From: Paenibacillus humicola
GTDB lineage: Bacteria > Bacillota > Bacilli > Paenibacillales > Paenibacillaceae
Assembly (NCBI RefSeq): GCF_028826105.1
Contig: NZ_JAQGPL010000001.1
Coordinates: 2,940,501-3,004,500 of the forward strand
DNA: 64,000 bases
Direction: 5' to 3'
How positions within the stretch are numbered: position 1 is the first letter of the stretch; each line of letters begins with the position of its first letter. A model generated the notes under the pieces. It saw only the letters and a list, made by a program, of their open reading frames with translations. It ran no database searches and was not told where the DNA came from. This document shows positions 3,886 to 27,843 of the stretch, in pieces. Both the position numbers and the translations under genes were made by a program.

Positions 3886-5145
3886 TTGATTGCGTTTCTG
3901 TTTCCCGGTCAAGGTTCGCAATACGTCGGGATGGGCAAAAGTCTGGTCGAGAATTTCCACGCAGCCAGAAGAACGTTCGAAGAAGCGGATGACGTCCTGA
4001 ACATGAATTTATCGGCTTTATGTTTTGAAGGCGAGCAAGCCCAATTAACGAGGACGGAATATGCACAGCCTGCCATACTGACGGCCAGCGTAGCCGCATA
4101 CCGCGTTTATATGGACGAAATCGGACTTCAACCGTTCGTTGCCGCAGGGCATAGCTTAGGCGAGTTCTCCGCCTTAACCTGCAGCGGAGCGATTTCGTTC
4201 GCGGATGCTTTGCGCATCGTGCGTAAGCGGGGCCTATTGATGCAGGAAGCCGTTCCGAACGGACTTGGTGCCATGACGGCGATTGGTCATGGGGACCAAA
4301 GGCGAGCCGAACAGTTGTGCGCAGAAATCTCGACCACCTTGAATCCGGTTTTAATCGGATGTTACAATGCGCCGGAGCAATTCGTGCTTTCAGGTCATCA
4401 AGAGGCGGTAGACAAGGTGGCTGAACGTTTAGGCGCCGAGGGAGGGACAGTCACAATTACTCCCTTGAAGGTGAGTTCGTCGTTTCATAGCCCGATGATG
4501 GAGCCGGCCGCCGAGCGGTTTAAAGAGGTCCTTTCCCGGTATTCCTTGGGCACGGGAGACTACCCGGTGCTATCCAACGTAACCGCGCTTCCGCATGAAA
4601 CGGAGCGATTGCCGGAGCTTCTGGCACGGCAAATCATTTCACCCGTTCGCTGGCAGGATTCCATGGATTATTTGCGCTGTCATCAGGTGAAGTTCGCCAT
4701 TGAGCTCGGGCCGAAGCAAGTACTCCAGAGCTTAATGAAGAAAAACGCGCCAACAGTCATTACCACGTCTTTAGGTGAAGTGGAAGATATTCGAAAGGTG
4801 AAGGAAGTGTTTAATCGGGAAGACGCCGAGCCTTCTTTTATCGGAAAGTGCCTGGCGATCGCCGTCGCAACCAAAAATCGCAATTGGGATCGCGAAGCTT
4901 ATGCAAACGGTGTCATTGAACCCTATCAGAAGGTGAAACGAATGTCTTTGCAGCTGGATCAGAATAAACAGCAGCCGACCCGGGAGCAGCTGATTGAAGC
5001 ACTGTCGATGCTTCGTTCCGTATTCGAAACGAAGCAAGTGCCGGAGAATGAGCAGCAAAAACGGCTGAAGCCGCTGCTCCGCATGCGGGCCGCAAAGGAA
5101 TTCACGCTTTCGGAACGGGGGGATTTTTTATGGCCAAGCTGCTGA
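3886..5145 (+). CDS. Discrete malonyl-CoA:ACP acyltransferase with C-terminal extension (trans-acting AT)
   Basis: A 419-residue FabD/acyltransferase protein that would load malonyl units from CoA onto a carrier protein. The N-terminal FPGQGSQYVGMG, the nucleophile elbow GHSLGE (Ser90), the carboxylate-binding Arg region IVRKRG and the catalytic His in SSFHSPM (His201) are all present, so it should be active and malonyl-type. After about residue 290 it carries a roughly 100-residue charged extension not found in housekeeping FabD. TTG at 3886 is preferred to GTG at 3880 because GGAGGTG ends at 3880. The gene overlaps the next one, an AT-less ketosynthase protein, by 16 bp, which indicates that this enzyme serves that module in trans. 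Confidence 0.88.
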   Translation: MIAFLFPGQGSQYVGMGKSLVENFHAARRTFEEADDVLNMNLSALCFEGEQAQLTRTEYAQPAILTASVAAYRVYMDEIGLQPFVAAGHSLGEFSALTCSGAISFADALRIVRKRGLLMQEAVPNGLGAMTAIGHGDQRRAEQLCAEISTTLNPVLIGCYNAPEQFVLSGHQEAVDKVAERLGAEGGTVTITPLKVSSSFHSPMMEPAAERFKEVLSRYSLGTGDYPVLSNVTALPHETERLPELLARQIISPVRWQDSMDYLRCHQVKFAIELGPKQVLQSLMKKNAPTVITTSLGEVEDIRKVKEVFNREDAEPSFIGKCLAIAVATKNRNWDREAYANGVIEPYQKVKRMSLQLDQNKQQPTREQLIEALSMLRSVFETKQVPENEQQKRLKPLLRMRAAKEFTLSERGDFLWPSC

Positions 5146-8100
5146 AATTCGATAAACGCTCAACCGCAACGGAAACGTCTGCGATTACCGTTCACGAGGA
5201 ATCGATGAAGGAGATCGCGATCATCGGCATGGCCATGTATTACCCCAAGGCGGAGAATCAGCATGAGTTTTGGAGTCATTTGGTTCATGAGATCGATTGT
5301 TCGGGTGCGTTTCCGGAAGCGCGACGGGAACAGATCGAAGCCTATTTGCGCTTTAAACACGCGTTGAACGATAAGATCAGCTATTTTCGAGGGTCGTATC
5401 TCGATACGATCGATGAGTTCGATTATTCGTTTTTCGGGATCACGCCCAAAGAAGCCGAGCTGATGGATCCGCACCAGCGTTTGTTTCTGCAGACGGCTTG
5501 GAAAGCCATCGAAGATGCCGGGTATGGCGGCAGCAAGCTGGTCGGATCCAAAACAGGCGTGATTGCGAGCAGCGAAGGCACCAAACCGTTGAGCTACCAA
5601 ACGATCGTCCAAGACGTCGAGCCGGAGTCGACCTACCTTTCCTATCCGGGTAATTCAGGGCCGATGACAGCCAGCCGCATTTCGTATTTATTGGATCTGC
5701 ACGGGCCCTCAATGATGATCGACACGTCATGTTCTTCTTCGCTCAGCGCAATCAATGTCGCGATTCACATGCTGCGCAGCGGTCAGCTGGAGCAGGCGAT
5801 TGTGGGGGCGGTTAAAATCAATATGCTCCCGATCGATATCGGAGACCGGGTGGGCATGGAATCGGCGGACGGCCGCACACGTACCTTCGCGGACGGCTCG
5901 GACGGAACTTCGGTAGGTGAAGGCGCTGCGGCCCTCATCCTGAAGCCGCTGAGCAAAGCGGTCCGGGACCGAGATCATATTTATGCGGTAATAAAAGGCT
6001 GCGCAGTGAATAATGACGGACGAGCGGTCAGCATCACGGCCCCCAACCCGGTTTCGCAGGAAGCCGTTATCGTGGAAGCGTGGAAGGATGCCGGGATCCA
6101 TCCCGAGCAGCTCTCTTATATCGAGGCGCACGGAACGGCTACCCCGCTTGGCGACCCGATCGAAATATCGGGCCTTACAAATGCGTTTCGGCGTTACACC
6201 GACAAGAAACAATTTTGTGCCATCGGATCCGTGAAATCCAATTACGCCCACACGTATTGTTTGGCCGGTATTACGGGGATCATTAAAGCGGCGTTAAGTT
6301 TGCAAAATCGGCAAATTCCCGCCAGCCTGCACTTCCATAAACCGAATAACAGTATTCCGTTCGAAGAATCGCCTCTCTATATCAACGATCAATTAACGGA
6401 CTGGGAGACGGACGGCTCGCCACGTCTTTGCGGCGTCAGTTCATTCGGGATGAGCGGCACCAACTGCCATGTCGTGCTGGAAGAGGCTCCGCCAAGGAAA
6501 CGGGAAGAAGTCGAACGGAACGGGCCGCATTTGTTTACGCTTTCGACCAAAACGGAAACGGCTTTGCGCCGGCTGATCGAGAGCTTCATACGCGATCTTT
6601 CGGATAAGCAGAATGAACGGACGAGCCTCCGGGATATCTGTTATACGGCAAGTACGGGGAGATCGCATTATCCGTATCGCATGGCGATTCTCGCAAGCGA
6701 TTTGCAGGACCTGCAGCGTAAATTACTGCATGTAGCCCGGAACGGCTGGGAAGAAACGGAACCGGAGGTTTATTATCGGCATGCGGAATCGACCTACCTT
6801 AGCGAGGAAGCGGACGAATATGTCGACCGCGCGATCAAGAACGATTCGGATCAAGAGCGCTTGCTTGGCAGGATCGCGGACTTCTATGTAAGTGGCGCCG
6901 ATATTCATTGGGACAAACTTTACGGCAGGGTCCCCGCCTATAAAGTGTCGCTTCCAACGTATCCGTTCGAGCGCGTTCCGTGCTGGGTTGAGATTCCCGA
7001 AGCATCGGCAGTCCATACAGCGAGTCCGGAGCTCATTAAAGCGCTTTCGGAGGTTGCCGCTTACTTGGAAGAACAAGCAAATTTGGACGTATTCGATGAA
7101 GCGGCGAAGAGAAGAGCGGGCCACTGGCTCCGCTCACTGAAAAGTCTGATGCCGAATTCAACTGCCATACCTTCGCGAGCCGTCGAACTGACAGGCAGAG
7201 AAGATGGCGGCTATAGGTTGAAAGAGCGGGAGATCGCGGTTGTTTGGCAAAAGATATTGGGTTTGAAAGTGGTCGATATTCATAAAGATTTCTTTGATCT
7301 GGGGGGAGACTCATATACTGCGGTCCAATTCGTGTCGAAGCTCCATGAGAAATACAACGTGGCGCTCCATGATTTATTCACTTATCGGACCATCTGCCGG
7401 CTTGCCGAACATATACAGGAGCAATCGGATCCGCTCGAAGCGAAGCTGGAGCAATTCAAGCGAAGCTTACAGTCGCCGGCCGCAATATCCGATGAGTTAC
7501 AGCGATTTATTGAAGTAGAAAAGCACAACTATGAGGCGAAGAACGAACGATTGGCCCGAGTCGATCTTTCCCGGGTGAAAGATTATTCGAATCTCTTATT
7601 GACGGGTGCAACCGGGTATTTGGGAATTCACCTGCTGTACGATTTGCTGAACATGTCGAGGAGTCATCTTCATGTCGTTGTCAGAGGAAGATCGCAAGCG
7701 GAGGCCGAAGCGAGGCTGGCGGATAAATGGGCTTATTATTTCGGTTTTCCTTCCTTCGACCGTAATCGTGTTACTGTCGTGAACGGCGATCTGACCCGTG
7801 ACGAGTTCGGCTTGCGGCGCGAGAGCTATGATTCGCTCGCTCAAACCGTAGATGGCATCATTCATTCGGCGGCCAACGTGAAGCATTTCGGCAATTACGC
7901 CGAATTCGAAGCTTTGAACGTGGAGGGCACGGAGCGCATAATCCGATTCGCCCATGATCAAAGGCCGAAAGATATTCACTTTATTTCGACCACGGCCGTA
8001 ACCAAAGGAAAGGTAAAGGATCGCCCCTGCGTCGTGTTCACGGAATACGATCATGATATCGGCCAACAGATCGGCCATCCTTACGGCGAAAGTAAATTCG

Positions 8101-8696
8101 AAGCGGAAAAAAGGATCGTGAACGCAAGGAACCAAGGATTAAACTGCAATATTTACAGAATCGGAAATATTATGTGCCATTCCGAAACGGGCAAATTTCA
8201 AGAAAACATCGAAGATAACGGATTGTATACGATATTCCGGTCGATGATCAAAATGAATCTGTTTCCGGACCGCAGGGATGGCGAAATTGATTTCAGCTTC
8301 GTGGACTATATCAGCCGAAGTATTTGTTTGCTCTTTAACCGAGCGGATTTAACCAATGAAACCTATCATCTGATGAACCGGGATAAAACCAGCTACCGTG
8401 AACTCGGCGAAGCGGCAATCGCCTCCGGCCTCCCCGTAAAGGTGACACCGTTGGATTCATTTATCGACTTTATAAGTGCACACTATTCCGACGAGCATGT
8501 CGGCCCTCATATTCAACATCTGCTGCTTCATTTGGGCTACTTCGAAGAGCTGGCCGATGAGGATCGTACGTACGCGGTCATGCTTTCAAGTAAAACGGAC
8601 TGGTTACTGAAGCAATTCGGACTGGTTTGGAAAAAACCGAACGAAGCGCAATTGAAAAAAGTACTGGATCACTGCGCAGAAGTTCAATTCATCTGA
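5130..8696 (+). CDS. AT-less polyketide synthase: KS - ACP - thioester reductase
   Basis: A 1188-residue modular protein. Residues about 26-450 are a ketosynthase with DTSCSSS (Cys201), EAHGTA (His334) and SNYAHT (His374), a full Cys-His-His triad. Residues 460-640 form the post-KS linker, ending in VSLPTYPFER, but no AT domain follows, so the discrete AT upstream must supply malonate. An acyl carrier domain has LGGDSYTA (Ser728). Residues about 820-1188 are a Lys2/MxaA-type reductase with TGATGYLG (Gly826 onward) and the SDR pair YGESK (Tyr985, Lys989), which would release the thioester as an aldehyde or alcohol using NAD(P)H. There is no KR, DH or TE. Although encoded first, the domain order implies it acts last, after the NRPS. 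Confidence 0.9.
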   Translation: MAKLLKFDKRSTATETSAITVHEESMKEIAIIGMAMYYPKAENQHEFWSHLVHEIDCSGAFPEARREQIEAYLRFKHALNDKISYFRGSYLDTIDEFDYSFFGITPKEAELMDPHQRLFLQTAWKAIEDAGYGGSKLVGSKTGVIASSEGTKPLSYQTIVQDVEPESTYLSYPGNSGPMTASRISYLLDLHGPSMMIDTSCSSSLSAINVAIHMLRSGQLEQAIVGAVKINMLPIDIGDRVGMESADGRTRTFADGSDGTSVGEGAAALILKPLSKAVRDRDHIYAVIKGCAVNNDGRAVSITAPNPVSQEAVIVEAWKDAGIHPEQLSYIEAHGTATPLGDPIEISGLTNAFRRYTDKKQFCAIGSVKSNYAHTYCLAGITGIIKAALSLQNRQIPASLHFHKPNNSIPFEESPLYINDQLTDWETDGSPRLCGVSSFGMSGTNCHVVLEEAPPRKREEVERNGPHLFTLSTKTETALRRLIESFIRDLSDKQNERTSLRDICYTASTGRSHYPYRMAILASDLQDLQRKLLHVARNGWEETEPEVYYRHAESTYLSEEADEYVDRAIKNDSDQERLLGRIADFYVSGADIHWDKLYGRVPAYKVSLPTYPFERVPCWVEIPEASAVHTASPELIKALSEVAAYLEEQANLDVFDEAAKRRAGHWLRSLKSLMPNSTAIPSRAVELTGREDGGYRLKEREIAVVWQKILGLKVVDIHKDFFDLGGDSYTAVQFVSKLHEKYNVALHDLFTYRTICRLAEHIQEQSDPLEAKLEQFKRSLQSPAAISDELQRFIEVEKHNYEAKNERLARVDLSRVKDYSNLLLTGATGYLGIHLLYDLLNMSRSHLHVVVRGRSQAEAEARLADKWAYYFGFPSFDRNRVTVVNGDLTRDEFGLRRESYDSLAQTVDGIIHSAANVKHFGNYAEFEALNVEGTERIIRFAHDQRPKDIHFISTTAVTKGKVKDRPCVVFTEYDHDIGQQIGHPYGESKFEAEKRIVNARNQGLNCNIYRIGNIMCHSETGKFQENIEDNGLYTIFRSMIKMNLFPDRRDGEIDFSFVDYISRSICLLFNRADLTNETYHLMNRDKTSYRELGEAAIASGLPVKVTPLDSFIDFISAHYSDEHVGPHIQHLLLHLGYFEELADEDRTYAVMLSSKTDWLLKQFGLVWKKPNEAQLKKVLDHCAEVQFI

Positions 8697-8727: not shown

Positions 8728-10086
8728 TTGTTGGAAAAATTCATGAGCATTATCGGCGATCCCGAGCGGATCAGCACAAGCGAGTCCGTTCGACGGCAGC
8801 ACGGCCAGGATCTCACCTCTTATCATGCGCAGCATTTGCCGGATGCGGTTCTCTTCCCGAAGAATAAAGATGAGCTGAGGGAAATCGTAGCCTACGCCAA
8901 TCAAGTGAAGTGTCCTATCGTGCCCTATGGACTCGGAACCAGCGTCGAAGGTCAAGTCGTTCCCGTTCGGGGAGGGATCAGTCTGGATTTCACCCGCATG
9001 AACCGAATACTCGACATCAGGGAAAACGATTTTGCCGTGCGGGTTGAGCCCGGCGTCACGCGAATGCAGCTTAATCGGGAACTGCAGAAGCACGGGCTGT
9101 TCTTTCCGATCGATCCGGGGGTGGATGCGACCTTGGGCGGCATGGTCGCGACCAATGCCAGCGGATGCAGCGCGGTTCGCTATGGAACGACAAGGGAACA
9201 AGTACTGGGCATGGAAGCTGTCTTGGCGGACGGCTCATTCATTCGGACCGGAAGCTTGGCCAGGAAATCTTCGGCAGGCTATAACCTGACCCAGCTGCTG
9301 GCCGGATCGGAAGGAACGTTAGCCGTATTTTCGGAGCTTTCTCTGCGGATATACGGAAGACCGGAGACGTTTCTTTATGCGAAAGCGGTGTTTCCTGATC
9401 TGCATCGGGTGTGCAGGACAGCGAACCGAATGCTGTATCAATCGGTTCAGCCCGGTAAATTGGAGCTCGTTGACGAATATACGATTCAGGCGATCAATGC
9501 CTACATGCGGACGAATTATGCGGTTAAACCGACGTTGTTTTTGGAGTTAAGCGGATGGGAAAGCACGGTCAAGGCCGAATGGGAGCGCGTCGAGGCCATC
9601 CTGAAGACTGAAGGAGCCGAGGAATGGAGCCATACATTCGACGGCGACGCCGGTGAACAATTATGGGATGCAAGACGGCATGCGGCCCTTGCCATTGCCG
9701 CATCCGCGCCCGGGAAGAAATTAATGACGACCGACGTCTGCGTTCCGTTGTCCGTATTGCCGGAAGCCGTCCTTTATGCCCGGGAAGTCATGCAAGCGGA
9801 GGACATGCAAGGCGCAATTCTCGGCCATATCGGCGACGGGAACTATCATGCGGTGTTTCCGGTTGATATGTCTCGCTCGGAGGAAGCGGAGAAAGCAGAG
9901 CGAATAAACGCATTCATTGTTCGCTTTGCACTGGAGCGCGGAGGAACCTGTACTGGAGAACACGGCATCGGACTCGGGAAAAAAAAGCATCTCGAAGAAG
10001 AGCAGGGAGACACGCTGACGTGGATGAAGAAAATTAAAGAACTGTTCGATCCAAACCATATTTTGAATCCGGAAAAGATTTTTTGA
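8728..10086 (+). CDS. FAD-linked 2-hydroxyacid oxidase/dehydrogenase (GlcD/D-lactate dehydrogenase family)
   Basis: A 452-residue flavoprotein of the VAO/PCMH fold. The FAD-binding half shows VPYGLGTSVEG, RVEPGVTRMQLN, PGVDATLGGMVATNASG and LAGSEGTLAVFSEL; the C-terminal cap shows GHIGDGNYH and GTCTGEHGIG, the metal/substrate region of lactate and glycolate dehydrogenases. It would oxidise an alpha-hydroxy acid to the alpha-keto acid. Placed between the PKS and a hydroxymandelate-synthase-like gene, its likely substrate is 4-hydroxymandelate, giving 4-hydroxyphenylglyoxylate; this is inferred from context. Known Hpg pathways use an FMN-type oxidase for this step, so this would be a different solution. 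The start is TTG, with GGAGGAG about 13 nt upstream. Confidence 0.85.
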   Translation: MLEKFMSIIGDPERISTSESVRRQHGQDLTSYHAQHLPDAVLFPKNKDELREIVAYANQVKCPIVPYGLGTSVEGQVVPVRGGISLDFTRMNRILDIRENDFAVRVEPGVTRMQLNRELQKHGLFFPIDPGVDATLGGMVATNASGCSAVRYGTTREQVLGMEAVLADGSFIRTGSLARKSSAGYNLTQLLAGSEGTLAVFSELSLRIYGRPETFLYAKAVFPDLHRVCRTANRMLYQSVQPGKLELVDEYTIQAINAYMRTNYAVKPTLFLELSGWESTVKAEWERVEAILKTEGAEEWSHTFDGDAGEQLWDARRHAALAIAASAPGKKLMTTDVCVPLSVLPEAVLYAREVMQAEDMQGAILGHIGDGNYHAVFPVDMSRSEEAEKAERINAFIVRFALERGGTCTGEHGIGLGKKKHLEEEQGDTLTWMKKIKELFDPNHILNPEKIF

Positions 10087-10114: not shown

Positions 10115-11239
10115 ATGAGTATTGCAAAAGCTGAATTGAATTCGGAGCAAGTTGTAAAGGACGTATTTCCGATCGAGGATATCGATTATGTGGAGATATA
10201 CGTAGGCAATGCCAGACAAGCCTGCTTTTATTACAGCAAGCTGTTCGGTTTTCGAATCGCGGCGTATAAAGGGCTGGAAACGGGTCATCGCGATGCCTGC
10301 TCCTATTTATTGCAGCGTGGCGAGATTCATCTGGTGCTTACTTCGGCCTATGAGCCCGGACATCCGATTGCGCAATTCGTTCATACGCACGGCGACGGCG
10401 TGAAAGATATTGCTTTCCGCGTCAAACGGGTTGAACAGCTGTATCATACGGCGATTGAAAACGGCGGAATTCCGCTGCAGCCGCCGCAGGCGATCGATGA
10501 CGAGCATGGGACGATCAAGGTCGCACGGATCGGTACGTATGGAAATATGGTGCATACGTTAGTGGAACGCACGGAATATACGGGATTGTTTTTACCCGGC
10601 TTCAAAGAAGTGGACGAGAGCGTCGCTTCCTACGATACCGGCTTGTTCCGGTTCGATCATTTTGCCATTAACGTCGAACGGATGGACGAATGGGCCAGGT
10701 ATTATGCCAACGTGTTCGGTTTTCATTTGCTCAATTCGTTCGATAAAGACGAAATCAGCTCGGAAACGTCCTCTTTAATGACCAAGGCGATGCAAAACGA
10801 TACGGAACGGGTGAAGTTTCCGATCGTAGAACCCGCGCCCGGCAAAAGAAAATCGCAGGTGCGTGAGTTCATCGAATATAACCGGGGGGAAGGAATCGGA
10901 CATATCGCGCTTGAAACCGACGACATCATCAAATCCGTTGAGAACCTGGAAAAGAACGGGCTCAAATTTCTCTATACACCCGAGGCCTATTATAACCTGC
11001 TGCCCGAACGCGTCGGCGAGATCGATGAGCCCGTTGACCGGCTGCAGCGGCTTCATATATTGGTCGATCGGGATGAAGAAGGGTATCTCCTGCAAATATT
11101 CGCCCATCCGATGGGGGACCGTCCGACACTCTTCTTCGAAATCATTCAGCGGAAAGGCTCGCGCGGTTTCGGAAACGGGAATATCCGCGCGTTATTCGAA
11201 GCGATCGAGCGCGAGCAGTTGAAAAGAGGAAATTTATAA
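10115..11239 (+). CDS. 4-Hydroxyphenylpyruvate dioxygenase-like enzyme, possible 4-hydroxymandelate synthase
   Basis: A 374-residue two-domain vicinal-oxygen-chelate protein homologous over its full length to HPPD and HmaS. The Fe(II) ligands are visible: FDHFAI (His182), GIGHIA (His263) and FFEIIQ (Glu342); the C-terminal GFGNGNIRALFEAIE helix is also present. HPPD makes homogentisate; HmaS makes 4-hydroxymandelate from the same substrate. Two usually conserved HPPD residues are changed: Asn in the PINEP motif is Val238 (HmaS has Ile there), and the Gln of GVQHIA is Gly262. The rest looks more like HPPD. With an oxidase before it and an aminotransferase after it, hydroxymandelate synthesis on the way to Hpg is my favoured role. 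GGAGGAGG precedes the ATG. Confidence 0.85.
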   Translation: MSIAKAELNSEQVVKDVFPIEDIDYVEIYVGNARQACFYYSKLFGFRIAAYKGLETGHRDACSYLLQRGEIHLVLTSAYEPGHPIAQFVHTHGDGVKDIAFRVKRVEQLYHTAIENGGIPLQPPQAIDDEHGTIKVARIGTYGNMVHTLVERTEYTGLFLPGFKEVDESVASYDTGLFRFDHFAINVERMDEWARYYANVFGFHLLNSFDKDEISSETSSLMTKAMQNDTERVKFPIVEPAPGKRKSQVREFIEYNRGEGIGHIALETDDIIKSVENLEKNGLKFLYTPEAYYNLLPERVGEIDEPVDRLQRLHILVDRDEEGYLLQIFAHPMGDRPTLFFEIIQRKGSRGFGNGNIRALFEAIEREQLKRGNL

Positions 11240-11251
11240 AGACGGGGAGTG

Positions 11252-18600: not shown

Positions 18601-21600
18601 CTCCCCGCACTTCGATCGAACAGACACTGGCTTCGATCTGGGAGCAGGTTTTACAGGTTCGACCCATAGGAACGGAAGATAATTTCTTTGCGGTCGGCGG
18701 CGACTCCATCTTAAGCATTCGGATTTTAGGCGAAATGCGCAAACAGGGCTATAGCGTGACGGTTCAAGATCTGTTTCGCTGCCAGACCGTTCACGAGTTG
18801 GCTGTTGCGATCGAAGGAGCAGACGGGACTGAAGCCCAGCTGCCTGTAATCGCACCTTTCCAACTGCTTATAGAAGAGGACCGGGCCCGCATGCCTGCAG
18901 GCGTTGCCGACGCCTACCCAATGACCAAGCTTCAAGAGGGAATGCTGTTTCACAGCAGCTATCGTCAAGATTCCATGACGTACTTGAACGTGTCTTCGTA
19001 CCATTTGAAGGCTCCGTTTGACCTGCAGGCATGGGAACGAGCGATCAACGTTTTGATGCACGATCATCCCGTTTTACGGACCTCGTTCGATTTAACGGGT
19101 TACAGCCGGCCGATGCAGCTGGTCCATGAACAGGTAGAAGCGCCGTTCGAAGTGAGCGATCTCCGCCATCTGTCCTTATCGCAGCAGGAGCAATGGCTGT
19201 CGGACTGGATGGGGAAGAAAGAAACGACTTCTTTTGACTGGGCCAAGGCCCCGTTATTTCGAATCGTCGTTCATCTTCGCTCGCAGCGGACCTTTCAATT
19301 CACCTGCATTGAACATCACGCGATTTTAGACGGATGGAGCGCCGCATCCTTATTTGCCGAAGTCTTCCGTCTGTACGTCGATTTCATGAATGGCCACGAA
19401 AAGGAACAGCCGGCTCCGCAAGCCGAATTCCGCGAATATGTCGCACTGGAGAGCGAAGCCTTGCAGTCCGGGGAGCATCGGCAATTCTGGCAGGAGCAGC
19501 TGTCGTCATTCCCGTTCAACGAGATTCCCCGCTGGCGAAAGACGAGAACGCAGCGGCAGGCCCGGATATGCGAGAAGCGGGTCGAACTCCCGATCGACCT
19601 GTCCCGTTCGTTGAAAGAGCTTGCCGGGCAGATGAGAATGCCATTAAAAAGCCTGCTGCTCGCCGCACATCTCCGCGTGCTTCAGGCGGTTACCGGACAG
19701 ACCGAGGTGATGACGGGGGTGCCGTTTAACGGTCGCGCGGAAGGACGCGACGGCGAACGAACGTTCGGACTTTTCCTTAACGCGCTGCCGTTTGGGGCCG
19801 CGCTGTCCGGCGGTACTTGGACGGAGCTTATCGGCCAATTATTTGAACAAGAGCAGACCTATTTGCGATACCGGCATTATCCGATGGCGCAAATTCAGCA
19901 GGACATGGGCGGAGATCCTTTATATGAAGTCATCTTTAACTACACGCATTTTCATGTACTCGATTCGCTGCGGCAGTTAAGCGATTTCGAGGTGCTGGAG
20001 TTTTCGGAGCGAACGGTTAACAATTTTGCATTGTCCGCAGAATTCGCGTTAAATGAGCAGGATCGGCTGCAACTGTTGATTCAATGGGATCAAAGCCAAT
20101 TTTGCGAGGAACAAATCGATCAGATGGCCGGTTATTATCGGAAGGCTTTGGCGTTCATGACCCAGGATCCCTTGGCACGCTATGAGGAGCAGGACTTGTT
20201 ATCGGAATCGGAAAGAGCGCAGATCATAACGGTATTCAACCCGTCCGAACCCGAAAACGAGCTGGCTGTCTTGCGAGCCAAGACCATCCATCAATGGTTC
20301 GAAGATCAAGCGGCAAAAACACCCGATCAGATCGCCGTTGTCTATGAAGGGCAGCGGCTGACTTATCGGGAGCTGAACGAAGAAGCCAATCGAATTGCCC
20401 GTCTGCTGCGTGCCAAAGGTGTTGGGCGGGAATCGATTGTAGGCATTATGCTTGAGCGCTCGATTGAGATGGCTGTCGGTACGCTGGCCATTTTAAAAGC
20501 GGGGGGCACTTATTTGCCGATCGATCCGGAGTATCCTGCAGAGCGAATCGAATATTTGCTTGCGGACAGCAGCGCGCGCTTGTTGTTAACTAAACAGGAA
20601 TGGATCGAACGCTTCCAATATAATGGCGAAATCGTCGATTTGTACCGCCCGTCGTGGGAAGCGCAAAATCCGCAAAATTTACCTCCTGTGAATTCGTCGT
20701 CGGATTTGGCTTACATCATCTATACGTCGGGTTCGACCGGAAAGCCGAAAGGCGTCATGATCGAACACCGCAATGTGCTTCGGCTCGTCATCCATCAGGA
20801 TTTTATCGACTTCCTGCCGGGTGAGCGTCTGTTGATGACGGGGAACTTTGCCTTCGATATCTCCACGCTGGAAATATGGGGGCCGTTATTGAACGGGATG
20901 ACGCTTCATTTACTGAATAAAGAGAAGCTGCTCGATCCCGCCAAGATCGAGCGTGAATTAGCGGACAATCGAATCGATATCGTTCATCTGGTCTCTCCGT
21001 TGTTTAGTCAGTTATCGAAAGAGAACCCGGCGATGTTTGCTGCGGTCAAGACGCTATTGGTAGGCGGCGATGTCGTATCGGCAAGCCATGTGAACGAAGT
21101 GAGAAAACATTGTCCGCAGCTGAAGGTGATCCACTCGTACGGACCGACGGAAAATACAACCTTCTCCACAACGTATCATGTGAATCGCGATTTCGATTCT
21201 TCGCTTCCGATCGGCAAACCGCTGCGGTATTCAACGGCTTACGTCGTGGATCCCAAGACGGGATTGCTGCGTCCGGTCGGCGTACCCGGCGAATTGTGGG
21301 TCGGCGGAGAAGGCGTTGCGAGAGGGTACTTCAATCAGCCGGAACTGACGAGCGAGAAGTTTATCCCGAGCCCGTTCCAAGCCGCGGAGAAGCTTTATCA
21401 AACAGGGGACCTGGTCCGTTGGCTCGAGGACGGAACGCTGGAGTTTCTCGGACGGATTGACCAACAGGTCAAAATCCGCGGCTATCGGGTGGAGGTTAGC
21501 GAGATCGAGTACCGCCTCCTGCAGCTGGATCAAGTAAAAGAAGCGGTGGTTATTGCGAGAGAAGATAAGCAGGATAAATATTTATGCGCCTACTTGACAA

Positions 21601-24600
21601 GCCCGGTGCCGTTATCCGCGTCCGTTCTGCGCGAGCATCTTGCACAATCCTTGCCTGATTTTATGATTCCAAGCTTTTTTGTACAGCTTGAGCAGATTCC
21701 GCTGACCGCTCATGGCAAAGTGGACCGGAAGCAATTGCCCGAGCCTCAAACAGGAGGAGACCTGGAACAAGACTTCGTCGAGCCTCGCAACGAGCGGGAA
21801 AATGAACTCGCGCAGGTATGGCGGGAAGTTCTCGGTCTCGAACGGATCAGCGTCCGGGACTCGTTCTTCGCTTTAGGCGGTCACTCTTTGAAGGCTACGA
21901 TCCTTGTCAGTAAATTACGCAAGCAATTGCAGGCGGAAATCGAGATTAAAGATATTTTTACGTATCAGACGATCGAAAAACTGGCTGCATACGTTTCTGA
22001 GGCGCAGCCTATACGGCACTTGCCGATTTCGGCAGTCGAGCCTCGAGATTACTACCCGGCATCCTCGGCGCAGCGGCGAATGTTTACCTTGGACAGGATG
22101 ATCGAGAACAAGCTGCTGTATACCATTCCGATTGCCGTTCGAATGAAGGGGAATATCGATCGTACGCGATTCGAAGCCTGCTGGCAGAAGCTGATCGAGC
22201 GCCACGAAACGCTGCGCACCGGGTTCGAGCTCACTCACGGCGAAGTGGTCCAGCATATTCATCCGGCGGTACCTTTCACGGTCGATTTTATTCCGGTTTC
22301 CCCTGAAGCCGAAGCGGACCGGCTGCAAAGTCTTGCTGCGAAACCGTTTGACTTGAAGATGGCCCCGCTTTTTCGGGCAACCGTTTTGACACGGACGGAT
22401 TCGGATTTTATCCTTGTCCTGAATATGCATCATATTATATCGGATGAAGCTACAATCGGAATCCTCCTGCGCGAATTCATGGATCTCTATGAAGGACGAA
22501 CGCTAGCTGAAACAACCATTCAATATAAAGACTATGCGTCCTGGCACAATGCGCTTCTTGAATCAGAAGAAATGAAGCAGCATGAAACGTATTGGGTAAA
22601 CCGGTTTACGGGCGACGAAATCCCCGTACTCCAGCTGCCGGCGGATTTCCAGCGTCCCGCTGTAAAAACCTACGAGGGGAATTCGCTATCGTTTACTGTG
22701 GACGCTTCCGCGGCCGACGGTTTAAAGTCACTGACGAAAATGACGGGAACGACGAACTATATGGTGCTGATGGCTGCTTTTAATGTCCTGCTCGCCAAAT
22801 ACAGCCGTCAGGATGACGTGGTAATCGGCACGCCGGTCGCCGGCCGAACGCACGCGGACGTGGAGCATGTAGCGGGAATGTTCGTCAATACGCTGGCGAT
22901 TCGGACGAAGTTGCAAAGCGGCAAGACCTTTTTACAGGTTGTCGAAGAGGTGAAGGCGGCAGCGTTAGCGGCTTTCCGTCATCAGGATTATCCGTTCGAG
23001 CTGCTGGTCGATCAATTGAAAGTAAAAAGGGATCCGGGCCGAAATCCCATCTTCGACGTGATGTTTTCGATGGAGTACCCGGATATTCCGCAAAGCGATT
23101 CCCATACTCTTCTTTTAGAGCCCTTTGATGCGCCTTATCCGTACTCAAAATTTGATCTCAGCTTATATGTGCGGGAAATGGGTGGACAGCTCCAGTTTAC
23201 GTTCCACTATTCGACGGCGCTGTTTGCACAAGAAACGATGGAACGGATGACCGGGCACTTCCGGCGGATTTTGCAGTCCGTTCTCGCGCATCCTGAGCGG
23301 CGTCTGGCCGACATCGAAATGATGACGGAGATGGAAAAACGACGGATCCTGATCGACCTCAACGAAACGGATGTGCCGATTCCATCCGATCGGACCGTTC
23401 ATCGGCTGTTCGAAGAGCAGGCGGGCAGAACGCCGCATAAGACCGCCGTTGTTCATCGGGAAACGAGCCTTACCTATTTTCAGGTAAACGAACGGGCGAA
23501 TCGGCTGGCGTGGCGGCTTCGCGAGCTGGGTGTGAATAACGGGACGATCGTGGGCGTAATGCTTGAGCGATCGGCCCAGGTCATCATCGGGATCTTGGGA
23601 ATCTTGAAGGCGGGCGGAGCTTATGTTCCGGTGGATCCGGAGCTTCCGACGGAACGCATCCGCTATTTTTTGGAAGATAGCGGCGCGGATGTGCTGATTA
23701 CCGAAAGCAGCTTGCTGGATAGGTCCGACTACGAAGGTCAAGTTGTCGAGATCGACGATGATTCGCTGAACCGTCAACCCGCTACAAATCCGGAGAGCGG
23801 GAGCCGGCCGGACGACCTCATGTATGTCATCTACACATCCGGCAGCACGGGCAAGCCCAAAGGCGTGATGGTCGAGCATCGCAGCATGGTCAACTATGTC
23901 GCATGGTTTACCGAGACGGCGAAGCTGCATGCCGGCGATCGTACGATTTTGCTCTCATCCTATGCTTTTGATCTAGGCTACACCAGCTTGTATTCGTCCT
24001 TGCTGAACGGCTGCGCCATTCATATCGCCGATCAAGACTTGGTGCGAAATCCGGAGGCGTTATTATCGTACTTGGGCGAGCACAAAATTAGTTATCTTAA
24101 AGGGACGCCGTCGCTCTTCCGCATGATGCTGCATGTTGCTTCAAGGCACTGGCAGGAAACCGACCGATACTTGCGGTTAGTGGTGTTAGGCGGCGAAGCG
24201 ATGAATGCGGAAGACGTCAGAGGCTTCCTTCAGACGCATCCGCAGGTTCAAATCCTCAACCATTACGGTCCGACGGAAACCTGTGTCGGAGCTATAGCAG
24301 GATTTGTAGACTCGGAGCAGCTCGCAAACCGTAACCATGTCCCTATCGGGAAACCGATCAACAATGCGAAAATTTACATTTTGGATGATGAGCTTCAGGC
24401 TGTGCCTGCCGGTATTCCCGGCGAACTGTTCATCTCGGGGGCAGGGCTTGCGAGAGGCTACCTGCATCGTCCGGACCTGACGAAAGAGCGGTTTGTACCG
24501 AGTCCCTTTGTGGAAGGGGAACGGCTTTACCGTGCCGGAGATATCGTGCGACTGCTGCCCGATCAGCAGATCGAATTTATGGGCCGTGTCGATCATCAGG

Positions 24601-25739
24601 TGAAAATTCGAGGTTACCGGGTCGAGCTTGAAGAAATCGAAAGCCACCTGCTGCAGCACCCGTCGATCCATCAAGCGGCGGTCATCTGCAGCGACCGTCA
24701 ATCGTTAATCGCTTATATCGTCGCTGAAGAAGCGTTTACGCTAGCCGCTCTGAGGGATTATTTGGCGAAGAAAATACCGGATTACATGATTCCGGCCCAA
24801 TTTGCGGCAGTTGACCGGATCCCGCTAACGCCGAACGGGAAAATCGATCGTCGCGCCTTGCCCGAGATCGAAGAAATGATCGGGATGGAAACCGAGCCCT
24901 CATCGCCAATGGATCAAGTCGAACGAGACCTCATTCAATTCTGGGAACAGGTGCTCGGGATGAAGGGAGTTGGGGTTCATACGAACTTCTTCGATATCGG
25001 GGGGAACTCGATGTCGTTAATCCAACTGCATAGTCTCATCGAACCCAAATACCTTAGCGTGACGGTGACCCATCTATTCGCTTACCCTTCGATTTCGAAA
25101 TTAGCGGCATTTATTCGGCAGTCCGCGTTCCAGGGGCGGCAGCCAGGCATACAAGCTATTCCGTATGCCGAAGAATACTTCGCCGGAGCAAACGGACTAG
25201 ACGGTACGTTTCATTTCACATTAGATGGCAAGCTGTATGCGCGCGTGTTTGATATGGCCGGGAACATGCAATTGGAACCGTCAGCGGTCATGCTTGCTTT
25301 ATATCTCTATCTGCATGCCGAGCTTTCCGAGCAGAATCAGGTGACGATTCCAACGATTACAGGCTGGAACGATAACATTCGTTTCGTCACGATTGATTTA
25401 AGCCGGGTCGAGCAGATATCGGATCTGCTTCAAATCGTACAAGCTCAGTTAAACGAAGCGGACTCCCAGAATGATGTGAGGTTATCGCTTATGGGCCCGG
25501 TTAGCGAAAAGCATGCTTTGGTTCCCGGTTTTATGCGCAATCGCGGGCTAGACTTGGAGAAGAAGTTTGCCGAGCACTGCGACCTGCTGCTGGTGCTTCA
25601 CGAGCACCCCGAGCATATGGAAGTGGAATGTAAGTATAAGGCTCGTTTAAACAAAGCGAAAGTGCTGGAAATGATGCAGCAATATGTACAAATCGTTCAA
25701 GCCATGGCGGAACAATTCGAACCGAGCATCGGTCGATAA
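15621..25739 (+). CDS. Three-module NRPS: C-A(Thr)-PCP-C-A(Hpg/Gly-like)-PCP-C-A(Asp)-PCP plus half C domain
   Basis: 3372 residues. Module 1: C with HHSITDG (His154-Gly160), A with its A3 motif at 627, PCP GGDSIL (Ser1029); code D-F-W-N-I-G-M-V-H-K, the standard Thr code. Module 2: C with HHAILDG (1232-1238), A3 motif at 1698, PCP GGHSLK (Ser2089); code D-I-L-H-L-G-S-T-F-K, between Gly (DILQLG) and Hpg (DIFHLG) patterns. Module 3: C with HHIISDE (2270-2276), A3 motif at 2735, PCP GGNSMS (Ser3130); code D-L-T-K-V-G-H-V-G-K, an Asp code. Residues about 3165-3372 are a lone C-terminal lobe of a condensation domain. There is no epimerase, no methyltransferase and no thioesterase. ATG 15621 has AAGGAG upstream. 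Confidence 0.93.
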   Translation: MSEQNRQTNQQDQSEPEQFYVFPASDVQQSQWFFHEMAPDNPMYNLPYLIRMQGALNREALEKSLQIVVDRHESLRTTFRMEQNRLVQLVSLEQPVSLPLSLAEPSSEMDQESRVQAWAAAEAGRLFDLRTGPLIRGRLLKVADEDHYLLLTLHHSITDGWSMAVLMQEWSEAYRCLAEDQPVETIERSIQYADFSEWQRERLESGEWAKQLAYWKRQLQGSPPLLPLPTDRNRPAVQSYRGDAFSLWIGPELKEAVTGFSRENGVTLFMTLFAAFQTLLYRYSGQDDLVVGTPIANRNQDGMKDVIGFVANTLALRSRIGEGWSFRQLVDHVRHVTLDAYDQQDVPFDKVVDELRIERSAAHSPLFQIMFVLQNHSAAAWDFPGIACKPIPLHTRTAKFDLTLTLEEATNGWACSFEYNTDLFDEETIRRMAQHYERLLQHGMEDPDQLLTRLRMVTKGEQAQEESRRHRNNREYSTEHAIHQLFEKRAAETPNAVAVVYEEKRYTYRELNERANQVAHELIGRGIASGSLVGICLERSLELIAAVIGVLKAGGAYVPLDPGMPADRLRFILEDSQVKALVTQQAVSGDLPSLTVPQIHLDTEWDKIVQQRTHNPDLPVAAGQFAYVIYTSGTTGKPKGVLVSHGNVTRLFAATEEKYRFTDRDVWTLYHSYAFDFSVWEIWGALLYGGKLVVVPYWISRSPEDFYRLLIGERVTVLNQTPSAFRQLIEVVKADPDSRRLSALRYVIFGGEALDLQSLRPWFEQYGDETPRLVNMYGITETTVHVTYRPITLADLEQGRGNEIGIPLPDLRVYVLDRHLQPVPTGVVGEMYVGGAGVTPGYLFRPELTAERFITSDAGERLYKTGDLARYLTSGELEYHGRTDHQVKIRGFRIELGEIESVLAQCPAIREAAVTVKEDRQIGSRIAAYVVYERNLSGTTNDDLRAYLSERLPDYMIPSTFIEVDAIPLNHNGKVDFLALPEPDFAKQSRNYTAPRTSIEQTLASIWEQVLQVRPIGTEDNFFAVGGDSILSIRILGEMRKQGYSVTVQDLFRCQTVHELAVAIEGADGTEAQLPVIAPFQLLIEEDRARMPAGVADAYPMTKLQEGMLFHSSYRQDSMTYLNVSSYHLKAPFDLQAWERAINVLMHDHPVLRTSFDLTGYSRPMQLVHEQVEAPFEVSDLRHLSLSQQEQWLSDWMGKKETTSFDWAKAPLFRIVVHLRSQRTFQFTCIEHHAILDGWSAASLFAEVFRLYVDFMNGHEKEQPAPQAEFREYVALESEALQSGEHRQFWQEQLSSFPFNEIPRWRKTRTQRQARICEKRVELPIDLSRSLKELAGQMRMPLKSLLLAAHLRVLQAVTGQTEVMTGVPFNGRAEGRDGERTFGLFLNALPFGAALSGGTWTELIGQLFEQEQTYLRYRHYPMAQIQQDMGGDPLYEVIFNYTHFHVLDSLRQLSDFEVLEFSERTVNNFALSAEFALNEQDRLQLLIQWDQSQFCEEQIDQMAGYYRKALAFMTQDPLARYEEQDLLSESERAQIITVFNPSEPENELAVLRAKTIHQWFEDQAAKTPDQIAVVYEGQRLTYRELNEEANRIARLLRAKGVGRESIVGIMLERSIEMAVGTLAILKAGGTYLPIDPEYPAERIEYLLADSSARLLLTKQEWIERFQYNGEIVDLYRPSWEAQNPQNLPPVNSSSDLAYIIYTSGSTGKPKGVMIEHRNVLRLVIHQDFIDFLPGERLLMTGNFAFDISTLEIWGPLLNGMTLHLLNKEKLLDPAKIERELADNRIDIVHLVSPLFSQLSKENPAMFAAVKTLLVGGDVVSASHVNEVRKHCPQLKVIHSYGPTENTTFSTTYHVNRDFDSSLPIGKPLRYSTAYVVDPKTGLLRPVGVPGELWVGGEGVARGYFNQPELTSEKFIPSPFQAAEKLYQTGDLVRWLEDGTLEFLGRIDQQVKIRGYRVEVSEIEYRLLQLDQVKEAVVIAREDKQDKYLCAYLTSPVPLSASVLREHLAQSLPDFMIPSFFVQLEQIPLTAHGKVDRKQLPEPQTGGDLEQDFVEPRNERENELAQVWREVLGLERISVRDSFFALGGHSLKATILVSKLRKQLQAEIEIKDIFTYQTIEKLAAYVSEAQPIRHLPISAVEPRDYYPASSAQRRMFTLDRMIENKLLYTIPIAVRMKGNIDRTRFEACWQKLIERHETLRTGFELTHGEVVQHIHPAVPFTVDFIPVSPEAEADRLQSLAAKPFDLKMAPLFRATVLTRTDSDFILVLNMHHIISDEATIGILLREFMDLYEGRTLAETTIQYKDYASWHNALLESEEMKQHETYWVNRFTGDEIPVLQLPADFQRPAVKTYEGNSLSFTVDASAADGLKSLTKMTGTTNYMVLMAAFNVLLAKYSRQDDVVIGTPVAGRTHADVEHVAGMFVNTLAIRTKLQSGKTFLQVVEEVKAAALAAFRHQDYPFELLVDQLKVKRDPGRNPIFDVMFSMEYPDIPQSDSHTLLLEPFDAPYPYSKFDLSLYVREMGGQLQFTFHYSTALFAQETMERMTGHFRRILQSVLAHPERRLADIEMMTEMEKRRILIDLNETDVPIPSDRTVHRLFEEQAGRTPHKTAVVHRETSLTYFQVNERANRLAWRLRELGVNNGTIVGVMLERSAQVIIGILGILKAGGAYVPVDPELPTERIRYFLEDSGADVLITESSLLDRSDYEGQVVEIDDDSLNRQPATNPESGSRPDDLMYVIYTSGSTGKPKGVMVEHRSMVNYVAWFTETAKLHAGDRTILLSSYAFDLGYTSLYSSLLNGCAIHIADQDLVRNPEALLSYLGEHKISYLKGTPSLFRMMLHVASRHWQETDRYLRLVVLGGEAMNAEDVRGFLQTHPQVQILNHYGPTETCVGAIAGFVDSEQLANRNHVPIGKPINNAKIYILDDELQAVPAGIPGELFISGAGLARGYLHRPDLTKERFVPSPFVEGERLYRAGDIVRLLPDQQIEFMGRVDHQVKIRGYRVELEEIESHLLQHPSIHQAAVICSDRQSLIAYIVAEEAFTLAALRDYLAKKIPDYMIPAQFAAVDRIPLTPNGKIDRRALPEIEEMIGMETEPSSPMDQVERDLIQFWEQVLGMKGVGVHTNFFDIGGNSMSLIQLHSLIEPKYLSVTVTHLFAYPSISKLAAFIRQSAFQGRQPGIQAIPYAEEYFAGANGLDGTFHFTLDGKLYARVFDMAGNMQLEPSAVMLALYLYLHAELSEQNQVTIPTITGWNDNIRFVTIDLSRVEQISDLLQIVQAQLNEADSQNDVRLSLMGPVSEKHALVPGFMRNRGLDLEKKFAEHCDLLLVLHEHPEHMEVECKYKARLNKAKVLEMMQQYVQIVQAMAEQFEPSIGR

Positions 25740-25861: not shown

Positions 25862-27127
25862 GTGAATTTCTCATTGTTCAGGCAGCGCGGCTTTGCCTTA
25901 TTAATTATATCGGAAGCGACTTCTTTGTTCGGCTCTTACTTCTTGAATGCGGCGCTCGCTCTTTACGTCCTTGGCTTAACGGGTTCGGCGGAGAAGTTCG
26001 CGTCCGTTCTCGCATTGGGAATGGTTCCCTATCTTATCGTGGGTCCGATTGCCGGTGTATTGGCGGATCGATTTAACAAGAAAATATGGATGATCGTGAT
26101 GGATGTCTTGCGAGGCATGCTCTGTTTGGTTTTGTTTGGGTACAGCTTGTTCGGGACGATTACGATGCCCTTCATCTATTTCGCGGTCCTATTTATATCC
26201 ACTTGCGAGATCTGTTATGGGCCAGTATTTATTTCACTGCTGCCAAGTGTCGTGAAAAAAGATGAGCTGGTCAGTGCCAATTCGTTCGAAAAAACGATCA
26301 ACGAAACCATGAAAATTTTGGCGCCTTTTCTTGGGACGCTGGTTTTCAGCTTGGCCGGCATCGGACCGGTTTTATTCGTAAACGGGATCACTTTTTTGAT
26401 CTCGGCTCTGGCGATCTCCTTGATGGCCATACCGAGAGTGGACAGCGCGGCAGCTAAACCGATCCGTCTGTTTCAAGATATGTGGGATGGGTTTAAAGTA
26501 TTTTTTATTGATAAACGAATCACCTCGATCGTATCGAATGCCTTTCTAACGCACTTTTTTATGTATCCGTTCATCCTGCTCGGTTTTCCGTATATCATCG
26601 TAACGTTACTCGGCGGGAGACAAACCGATTACGGTATCGTAGAAAGTATTTCTACAATCGGATCGATTCTGGCCATCTTCACGGTGCCGCCGATGAAGAA
26701 ATTCGGAGTCGCCAATAATATCGGAATCGGGATATTAGGCATGTGCGTCCCGATTATCCCTTTGTTATTTTTAGCCAATCCGAATTTTTTGGAACTTTTG
26801 AAGCTGAATGACAATTATCCGGTTCTTTTTTTCGGACTGATTAGTTTCCTGCTTTTCCTGGCCTTTAGCTTCTATCTCGTTTTTTTCGCTTCCTTCTATC
26901 AAACGGTGGTTCCAAGAGAGCTGTTCGGAAGGTATGGGGCGGGGATGATGGTATTGAACGGCGCAGGAAGACTGGTCGGATTTCTGATATTCGGTTATTT
27001 ATTCAGCCTTAATTCCTTACTGTATGCGGTTTTATTCTTCGGGATCGGCATGAGCTTAAAGATTGTCGTCCATATTCCGTTCATGACGATGACGAGAAAA
27101 ATCGAACAACAGCAGAGGTCGATGTGA
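25862..27127 (+). CDS. MFS exporter (EntS/MFS_3-like), probable product efflux
   Basis: A 421-residue membrane protein with about twelve hydrophobic segments and the MFS loop 2-3 motif GVLADRFNKKIWM (the D-R-F-K form typical of EntS/MefA-like MFS_3 exporters). It would export a small molecule across the cytoplasmic membrane by proton antiport. Its position, 122 bp after the last NRPS gene and overlapping the phosphopantetheinyl transferase gene by 4 bp, makes it the likely exporter or self-protection gene for the cluster product. GTG at 25862 is used, with GGCGGGAG upstream. Confidence 0.88.
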   Translation: MNFSLFRQRGFALLIISEATSLFGSYFLNAALALYVLGLTGSAEKFASVLALGMVPYLIVGPIAGVLADRFNKKIWMIVMDVLRGMLCLVLFGYSLFGTITMPFIYFAVLFISTCEICYGPVFISLLPSVVKKDELVSANSFEKTINETMKILAPFLGTLVFSLAGIGPVLFVNGITFLISALAISLMAIPRVDSAAAKPIRLFQDMWDGFKVFFIDKRITSIVSNAFLTHFFMYPFILLGFPYIIVTLLGGRQTDYGIVESISTIGSILAIFTVPPMKKFGVANNIGIGILGMCVPIIPLLFLANPNFLELLKLNDNYPVLFFGLISFLLFLAFSFYLVFFASFYQTVVPRELFGRYGAGMMVLNGAGRLVGFLIFGYLFSLNSLLYAVLFFGIGMSLKIVVHIPFMTMTRKIEQQQRSM

Positions 27128-27843
27128 GCGAGATCAAAACAGAGTCCATACTGAACATTTACTGGGTGCGGCTTCCGGAGGAGATCGACTTATCGGCATG
27201 GGAGTCCCGGTTAGGCTTATTGAATAAAGAAGAAAGAACGGTCTATGACCGCTATCTCACGGATCAGAAGAAGCTTGAATTTCTGGTTGGAAGATTATTG
27301 TTGAAATCGTTAATCGGGCGGCGGCTGGCGATTGAACCCGAGCGGGTAGCCTTTGTCAAAAACCCGTATGGAAAATTATATTTACACCCGAAATTCAACA
27401 ATGAAACGGGCAATGAACCGATTTATTTCAACTTGTCCCATTCCAAACGAATCGTTGCCTGCGTCATTTCATCGCTTGAGGAGGCGGGCATCGATGTGGA
27501 AAGCATGAGCCCGTCGCCCCCTTTGGATGTTATGCCTGTCGTCTTCGTGCATAGCGAACGAAATCTTATTGAAGCCGAATCGTCCTTGGCGAAGAAGAGG
27601 GAGGCGTTTTATACCGTCTGGACGAGGAAAGAAGCGGTGATGAAAGCGGTGGGGAAGGGCTTTTCGCATCCGCCGTTGTCGTTCTCCGTACCGGTCTACG
27701 ACGAACGGGCGGCCGACGAATATTATTTGTACTATACCTTCCGGCCGGTAAACGATGAAATTATTTCGATTGCCGCAAGCAGGAAAGCCGGGATTGAGAT
27801 AAAAATTGAATGCCGGGAAGTTCACGACTTAGAAGCGTTTTAA
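27124..27843 (+). CDS. Sfp-type 4'-phosphopantetheinyl transferase
   Basis: 239 residues with the Sfp-family landmarks: NLSHSKRIVACVIS, GIDVES (the Mg-binding Asp) and FYTVWTRKEAVMKAVGKG (the W-KEA-K-GKG signature). The enzyme transfers the phosphopantetheine arm of CoA to the carrier-domain serines (Ser728 of the PKS; Ser746, 1029, 2089 and 3130 of the NRPS proteins). The GTG start sits inside the end of the exporter gene (GTGA overlap), so it is translationally coupled and is the last gene of the cluster before a strong terminator. Confidence 0.95.
   Translation: MSEIKTESILNIYWVRLPEEIDLSAWESRLGLLNKEERTVYDRYLTDQKKLEFLVGRLLLKSLIGRRLAIEPERVAFVKNPYGKLYLHPKFNNETGNEPIYFNLSHSKRIVACVISSLEEAGIDVESMSPSPPLDVMPVVFVHSERNLIEAESSLAKKREAFYTVWTRKEAVMKAVGKGFSHPPLSFSVPVYDERAADEYYLYYTFRPVNDEIISIAASRKAGIEIKIECREVHDLEAF

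Follow-up and report, generated by a model that had tools for sequence, protein, structure and literature searches.

A ten-gene biosynthetic cluster of Paenibacillus humicola, located in a 64,000-nucleotide stretch of contig NZ_JAQGPL010000001.1 (hereafter the window, to which all positions refer), is predicted to encode a hybrid of nonribosomal peptide synthetase (NRPS) and trans-acyltransferase polyketide synthase (PKS). Domain order, adenylation (A) domain codes, residue signatures and synteny were taken from the sequence, and the enzymatic steps were inferred from them. In the reading that is favoured with somewhat better than even confidence, the assembly line would join alanine, dehydrobutyrine (Dhb, derived from threonine), 4-hydroxyphenylglycine (Hpg), Asp or Asn, and one malonate unit, and would release the chain as a beta-keto aldehyde or the corresponding alcohol. 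The parts belong to known classes; the family of the Hpg oxidase, the combination of parts and a half condensation domain at the end of the second NRPS differ from the systems compared. In the literature searched, mainly open papers with subscription papers largely outside, neither a product of the cluster nor a described compound of this composition was found, in line with the earlier sequence-only reading, which had known of none.

Organization and conservation of the cluster

Open reading frame (ORF) calls and Pfam/NCBIfam profile searches place ten co-directional ORFs on the + strand of the 5.93 Mb host genome, from a GTG start at 3880 to 27843. In order, they encode an acyltransferase (AT), a ketosynthase (KS)-acyl carrier protein (ACP)-thioester reductase (TD) protein, an FAD oxidase, a dioxygenase of the 4-hydroxyphenylpyruvate dioxygenase (HPPD) family, a class I/II aminotransferase, a type II thioesterase (TEII), NRPS1, NRPS2, a major facilitator superfamily (MFS) exporter and a phosphopantetheinyl transferase (PPTase). 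By the same profiles, NRPS1 consists of an A domain and a peptidyl carrier protein (PCP), and NRPS2 repeats condensation (C), A and PCP domains three times. The cluster thus holds four A domains and five carrier domains, with a single KS, a single TD and no in-line thioesterase (TE), exactly as had been counted earlier. The description of a self-contained set of ten co-directional genes likewise holds in the light of domain searches and synteny, with the start refined to 3880. The half condensation domains at the N-terminal end of NRPS1 and the C-terminal end of NRPS2, and the class to which the second C domain is assigned, go beyond that first description. The corrected starts of NRPS1 and NRPS2 most likely lie at 13175 and 15621. 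The features are as follows.

3880..5145, +: standalone acyltransferase (trans-AT), predicted malonyl-specific (TIGR00128 fabD, 299 bits, cut-off 261; 67-74% identity in five other clusters)
5130..8696, +: KS-ACP-thioester reductase without AT or ketoreductase (KR) (Pfam/NCBIfam domains; catalytic residues invariant)
8728..10086, +: FAD oxidase of the GlcD/D-lactate dehydrogenase family, predicted 4-hydroxymandelate oxidase (PF01565 and PF02913; 8jdc, E 4e-116)
10115..11239, +: predicted 4-hydroxymandelate synthase (HMS) of the HPPD family, with V238 and I357 replacing N and F (TIGR01263, 416 bits, cut-off 277; signature)
11249..12439, +: class I/II aminotransferase (2-aminoadipate/kynurenine type), predicted Hpg-forming (profile matches)
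12453..13178, +: standalone type II thioesterase, predicted proofreading (PF00975)
13175..13786, +: NRPS1 N-terminal half condensation domain, C-lobe only, no HHxxxDG
13787..15607, +: NRPS1 A1 (Ala, DLFNNALTYK) and PCP (domain search and code reading)
15621..16950, +: NRPS2 C1, ordinary C domain (best solved match Txo1, 311 bits)
17050..18830 (limits approximate), +: NRPS2 A2 (Thr, DFWNIGMVHK) and PCP2 (GGDSI) (domain search and code reading)
18858..20270, +: NRPS2 C2, predicted dehydrating C domain (Thr to dehydrobutyrine), with KSLLLAAH and EHHAILDG (McyA 381 bits, AmbE 219 bits)
20280..22010 (limits approximate), +: NRPS2 A3 (DILHLGSTFK, predicted Hpg) and PCP3 (GGHSL) (code reading)
22020..23400, +: NRPS2 C3, ordinary C domain, HHIISDE in place of HHxxxDG (TycC, 397 bits)
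23410..25145 (limits approximate), +: NRPS2 A4 (Asp or Asn, DLTKVGHVGK) and PCP4 (GGNSM) (domain search and code reading)
25146..25739, +: NRPS2 C-terminal half condensation domain, C-lobe only; proposed to hand the chain on to the KS protein
25862..27127, +: MFS exporter (PF07690; 82-84% identity in P. arenilitoris and P. vietnamensis)
27124..27843, +: Sfp/HetI-type phosphopantetheinyl transferase (PF01648; 66-68% identity in P. arenilitoris and P. vietnamensis)

Syntenic clusters, with approximately 58-86% protein identity per gene, occur in five other named species (P. vietnamensis N4, P. arenilitoris, P. caseinilyticus, Bacillus pakistanensis and Ectobacillus panaciterrae), and the cluster is therefore not a chance grouping. 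All ten genes are retained in order in P. arenilitoris and P. vietnamensis N4. For the other three, the 23 kb loci compared end inside NRPS2, before the MFS and PPTase genes, and gene order is kept up to that point, with no TEII match in P. caseinilyticus. Full NRPS2 orthologues come from B. pakistanensis, E. panaciterrae, P. vietnamensis N4, P. arenilitoris and one 27,947-base contig. The limits of the cluster are marked by its flanking genes, since the upstream Na/H exchanger and the downstream AraC and sugar-binding genes are unmatched in the 32-35 kb of the P. arenilitoris and P. vietnamensis loci. A terminator-like site follows the PPTase gene at 27937-27954; the window holds eight such sites, against 2.9 expected.

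The scan of genome contigs behind these comparisons kept 80 of 139 relatives. At E 1e-250, the KS-ACP-TD protein was matched in one of 398 genomes of the class, the host's own, a strict cut on an even-draw sample that shows rarity only roughly. Proteins 45-48% identical to it (P0010-P0015) are present in Bacillus subtilis, Lysinibacillus, Oceanobacillus, Rummeliibacillus and P. taichungensis. A role of the TEII as an LgnA-like aminoacyl shuttle was also considered and is thought unlikely, because no counterpart was found at the P. caseinilyticus locus (L037).

Predicted residues and a probable dehydrating condensation domain

The A-domain codes were read from motif positions and by eye (A3 partly by eye), with the lysine at position 10 assumed and the positions following GrsA numbering. 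Re-reading gave the same letters as the original hand-read codes, and the A2, A3 and A4 codes are the same in the orthologues read. The A3 code is one letter off DILHLGCTFK, which is listed for Hpg (PMC12283262); owing to this near match and the presence of an Hpg cassette, the third residue, previously left as Hpg or Gly, is predicted to be Hpg rather than Gly.

The second residue, initially read as Thr, is probably dehydrobutyrine instead, as suggested by the class of the C domain that follows the Thr module. Against all solved chains, C2 is closest to McyA (381 bits), followed by AmbE (219), McyB (184) and lower-scoring chains, among them tyrocidine synthetase 2 (110). By comparison, C1 matches Txo1 at 311 and McyA at 81 bits, C3 matches TycC at 397 and McyA at 89 bits, and the AmbE chain 7r9x is absent from the match lists of both (cut at E 1e-20). 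The CmodAA class was first named from microcystin and bleomycin. Among its members, domains of AmbE, AlbB and LgnD were shown to act as dehydratases on the residue bound to the upstream carrier; [K/R]SVLLAAH is common to the class, and the LgnD donor carrier reads GGDSx (PMC10880069, PMC11342130). KSLLLAAH or KSILLAAH is found in the C2 of all six orthologues, the window included, as are GGDSI in PCP2 and GGHSL in PCP3. C2 is accordingly predicted to belong to the dehydrating class, and with Thr as the preceding residue the product of dehydration would be Dhb. It shares with the McyA, AmbE, AlbB and LgnD domains the sequence class, the position after a Thr module, the [K/R]SxLLAAH motif and the GGDSI carrier; it differs in that an Hpg module follows and the line ends in PKS reductive release.

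Alternatively, Thr (or D-allo-Thr) might be kept and C2 might be an ordinary D-clade C domain, giving Ala-Thr-Hpg-Asp-C2 as a linear aldehyde of C21H28N4O9 ([M+H]+ 481.193). C2 does retain HHxxxDG, and GGDSI is also the motif of carriers preceding epimerization (E) and DCL domains (PMC10880069). However, no separate E domain lies between PCP2 and C2, the three condensation-type stretches of NRPS2 being C1-C3, and the scores for McyA and AmbE are well above the 110 bits for tyrocidine synthetase 2. In addition, the CmodAA motif is present in every orthologous C2 read, and a count over the fetched loci, with 58 distinct HHxxxDG C domains, gave two occurrences, each in an orthologous C2. Retention of Thr is on this evidence unlikely, while keeping a real share of the probability.

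Probable order of the assembly line and predicted reductive release

The cluster has a trans-AT layout, in which the KS module lacks an AT and a separate AT is encoded alongside. The KS residues C201, H334 and H374, the ACP residue S728 and the TD residues Y985 and K989 are invariant in nine aligned rows, and the best solved match of the KS is the putative polyketide synthase 7zma. A terminal thioester reductase with YxxxK, together with the lack of an in-line TE, supports the reductive release predicted earlier.

That the NRPS proteins act before the KS protein, initially a supposition, is supported by a cluster of P. rhizophilus (L040), in which the last domains of an NRPS are an Asp-type A domain (DLTKIGHIGK), a PCP and a half condensation tail of the same kind; similar AT and KS-ACP-TD genes follow directly downstream. 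This arrangement supports an order with the NRPS first and the PKS last. Beyond these shared elements, identities are 36% for the AT, 38% for KS-ACP-TD and 32% for the MFS protein; the P. rhizophilus NRPS differs by a domain that, as read by eye, is probably a fatty-acyl ligase, and the 23 kb of the locus showed no Hpg genes. The product of that cluster (L040:2796-14672) might be an acyl-Asp beta-keto aldehyde. The search for half condensation tails scored 315 candidates, all proteins sharing exact words, and two remoter tails were obtained by tblastn among the fetched loci. In P. glacialis (L046:515-5592), an NRPS with a terminal tail of this kind stands directly before AT and KS genes.

Since no KR is encoded, addition of one malonate would leave a beta-keto thioester, from which the TD would give a beta-keto aldehyde. 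For the same reason, closure on the free Ala amine, at first expected to yield a cyclic imine, would instead yield an enaminone. A plain aldehyde, Ala-Dhb-Hpg-Asp-H, closing to a cyclic imine, would result if the KS passed the chain on without elongating it, and non-elongating KS domains are known in trans-AT lines. Nevertheless, the KS retains its Cys and both His residues in all nine rows and is followed by an ACP, and a dedicated malonyl-type AT is encoded in all six clusters, so that a KS confined to chain transfer appears rather improbable and elongation by one malonate is preferred.

Predicted supply of hydroxyphenylglycine

The HPPD-family dioxygenase is predicted to be an HMS. It was placed in an alignment of 133 rows, comprising the best 120 of 8000 scored relatives (window protein included) and 13 actinobacterial loci. 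Of these rows, 33 combine V or I at position 238 with I at 357: 24 from the best 120 proteins and one from each of the nine HMS-type actinobacterial loci. A further 97 have N with F, and three have mixed pairs. V238 and I357 occur in all six cluster copies, the window protein among them. At both sites, GN(F/I) and PI(N/V)EP, the residue is I in 2r5v, which we take to be a solved hydroxymandelate synthase and which is the best solved match (497 bits) of the actinobacterial HMS-type locus L148; the Phe/Ile site presumably matters for the distinction between HMS and HPPD.

Were the enzyme instead a catabolic HPPD, A3 would take another amino acid such as Gly or Leu. The protein is a member of the HPPD equivalog family (TIGR01263, 416 bits), its nearest solved structure is the HPPD 1t47 (352 bits, versus 202 for 2r5v), and its relatives are named HPPD in public records. 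Both HMS-type residues are nonetheless present in every cluster copy, whereas most aligned rows keep N and F, and the gene sits between oxidase and aminotransferase in all six clusters. Two of the five other carriers possess additional, ordinary HPPDs (one further copy in B. pakistanensis and two in E. panaciterrae, all three with N and F). The host has a single HPPD-family gene, and its genome gave no match to homogentisate dioxygenase in a search whose control matched in one of 14 genomes. Given the signature, the extra N and F copies elsewhere and the missing homogentisate dioxygenase match, the cluster enzyme is most likely not catabolic, and the alternative is judged highly improbable.

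The HMS-type relatives among the best 120 (among P0127-P0175; also L004 and L005) are, where a source name is attached, filed as 4-hydroxyphenylpyruvate dioxygenase, in Tumebacillus, Brevibacillus borstelensis, Chengkuizengella and Paenibacillus spp.; further Hpg clusters may stand unlabelled among them.

The oxidase is not of the usual kind. Hmo, the oxidase of the known route, is taken here to belong to the FMN-type (PF01070) family, and PF01070 gave no match in any of the ten cluster genes. The best solved match of the cluster oxidase is 8jdc, a probable mitochondrial D-lactate dehydrogenase. This FAD oxidase adjoins HMS in all nine Bacillota HMS loci examined, namely the six orthologous clusters and three other loci of Paenibacillaceae (G299, G314 and G007); at least 16 further Bacillota HMS-type proteins among those listed (Tumebacillus, Brevibacillus and others) lie outside these nine. 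In G007 (L157/L160), HMS and oxidase are split over several frames; only the first signature residue, I, was read, and the locus enters the count solely for its gene neighbourhood. At the nine actinobacterial HMS-type loci (7.6-9 kb each), by contrast, the FAD oxidase was not found, and FMN_dh (PF01070) lies within 4 kb of eight (directly adjoining in seven, 3.3 kb away in one), L149 having none nearby. A protein 32% identical to the FAD oxidase is encoded at a Streptomyces HPPD locus (L138), one among 77 loci scanned.

The known Hpg route proceeds through HmaS, Hmo and an aminotransferase (PMC10991500, PMC9136287). The vancomycin/calcium-dependent antibiotic (CDA)-type cassette (HmaS, Hmo, HpgT) shares with the present one an HMS with like changes at the two sites, an oxidase and an aminotransferase near NRPS genes; its oxidase is FMN_dh (PF01070), whereas that of the present cassette belongs to the FAD D-lactate dehydrogenase family. 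The cluster aminotransferase is 25-29% identical to those near seven of the nine actinobacterial HMS-type loci. Of the Hpg cassette proposed from the sequence alone, the supply of Hpg is supported; the oxidase departs from expectation. The cassette is probably of a different make from the actinobacterial one, with Hpg made through a flavin enzyme of another family.

The nine Bacillota loci contain two kinds of aminotransferase. The second Bacillota cassette, seen in G299 (L158), G314 (L159, P. plantiphilus) and G007 (L160), comprises the FAD oxidase, HMS, a class IV aminotransferase and NRPS genes.

Finally, C2 might act like the nocardicin M5 C domain, with the Hpg amine adding to transient dehydrobutyrine to form a beta-lactam; in nocardicin, too, a dehydrated hydroxy residue precedes Hpg (PMC10880069), yet M5C needs the extra His of HHHxxxDG, where C2 has Glu (EHHAILDG) in all six orthologues, and is placed among DCL domains (PMC10880069) while C2 is nearest to CmodAA members, which makes this the least credible of the alternatives.

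Proposed pathway and points against it

In the favoured pathway, HMS would convert 4-hydroxyphenylpyruvate to 4-hydroxymandelate, the FAD oxidase (of a D-2-hydroxy acid family) would oxidize this to the glyoxylate, and the aminotransferase would yield Hpg. NRPS1 would load Ala and C1 would couple it to Thr, which C2 would dehydrate on PCP2 and couple to Hpg before C3 adds Asp. The half condensation tail of NRPS2 may help to hand the chain to the KS, the separate AT would load malonate, and the TD would use NAD(P)H to set the chain free. A cyclic enaminone may then form by closure of the aldehyde on the free amine of Ala. For the linear beta-keto aldehyde of Ala-Dhb-Hpg-Asp with one acetate unit, the calculated composition is C21H26N4O8 ([M+H]+ 463.182; 445.172 after loss of water on cyclization); addition of H2 to give the alcohol would bring the value to 465.198.

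Several observations weigh against this pathway and product. The whole is a prediction from sequence. D-lactate-dehydrogenase-type enzymes prefer (R)-acids. The known HmaS product is (S)-hydroxymandelate (PMC10991500), a possible stereochemical mismatch with that preference, and the role of the FAD oxidase as 4-hydroxymandelate oxidase is predicted from gene neighbourhood alone. A second HPPD is not general, since P. caseinilyticus, P. arenilitoris and P. vietnamensis gave no HPPD-family match besides the copy in the cluster. In the C6 motif, an Arg pair is present in 96% and 78% of CmodAA domains (PMC11342130, the corallorazine paper); C2 keeps the first Arg and apparently has His for the second (by eye on the alignment). 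The C3 active site reads HHIISDE rather than HHxxxDG in all six orthologues. In both P. caseinilyticus and E. panaciterrae, the Ala code begins DLFNNC and not DLFNNA, the B. pakistanensis Ala domain not being among those read. DLTKVGHVGK is given for both Asp and Asn (PMC12283262), and the fourth residue, earlier called Asp, accordingly becomes Asp or Asn. The TD exceeds the cut-off of PF07993 (177 bits) but falls just under that of TIGR01746 (207 bits, cut-off 213).

A separate origin of the Bacillota HMS was also considered and is not shown. Trees were built from 41 rows picked from 74 loci, from 35 rows after dropping six long-branch rows, and from 60 rows chosen among the proteins and loci listed. 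All HMS fall on one side of one branch in the 35-row tree (approximately unbiased (AU) test, p 0.056), while the Bacillota HMS need three label changes in the 60-row tree (AU tests, p 0.265, 0.15 and 0.222). As the three trees and the tests support neither one origin nor several, no convergence is claimed.

A bolder proposal, held only tentatively, is a separate Bacillota Hpg route in which an HMS of opposite handedness supplies (R)-4-hydroxymandelate to a D-2-hydroxyacid FAD oxidase, feeding a Dhb-Hpg-Asp beta-keto aldehyde that closes to a cyclic enaminone, with the half condensation domain as NRPS-to-PKS hand-over. The (R)-hydroxymandelate route itself is an idea, not a result.

Neighbouring genes

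Ten downstream proteins scanned between 28162 and 62236 are all of ordinary regulation, transport and sugar-metabolism types. They include a GntR/FCD regulator, two Gfo/Idh/MocA oxidoreductases, two ABC permeases, a sensor kinase/AraC-type regulator pair, and HAD, SIS and aldehyde dehydrogenase proteins.

Implications

Paenibacillus produces nonribosomal peptides of classes such as the cilagicins; in the literature searched, none from this genus was found to combine Hpg with reductive release. Vancomycin-type and other antibiotics contain Hpg as a building block, and the FAD oxidase is a candidate for a pathway step hitherto credited to a different protein family. If the FAD oxidase does take this role, genome scans keyed on the FMN oxidase would miss Hpg peptides of Bacillota, and Hpg biocatalysis would gain a new oxidase. 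The predicted product would join dehydrobutyrine, Hpg and a reactive beta-dicarbonyl end in one molecule, and the carriers of the cluster include the culture-collection strains DSM 24834 (B. pakistanensis) and DSM 19096, which are open to a direct search for the predicted masses.

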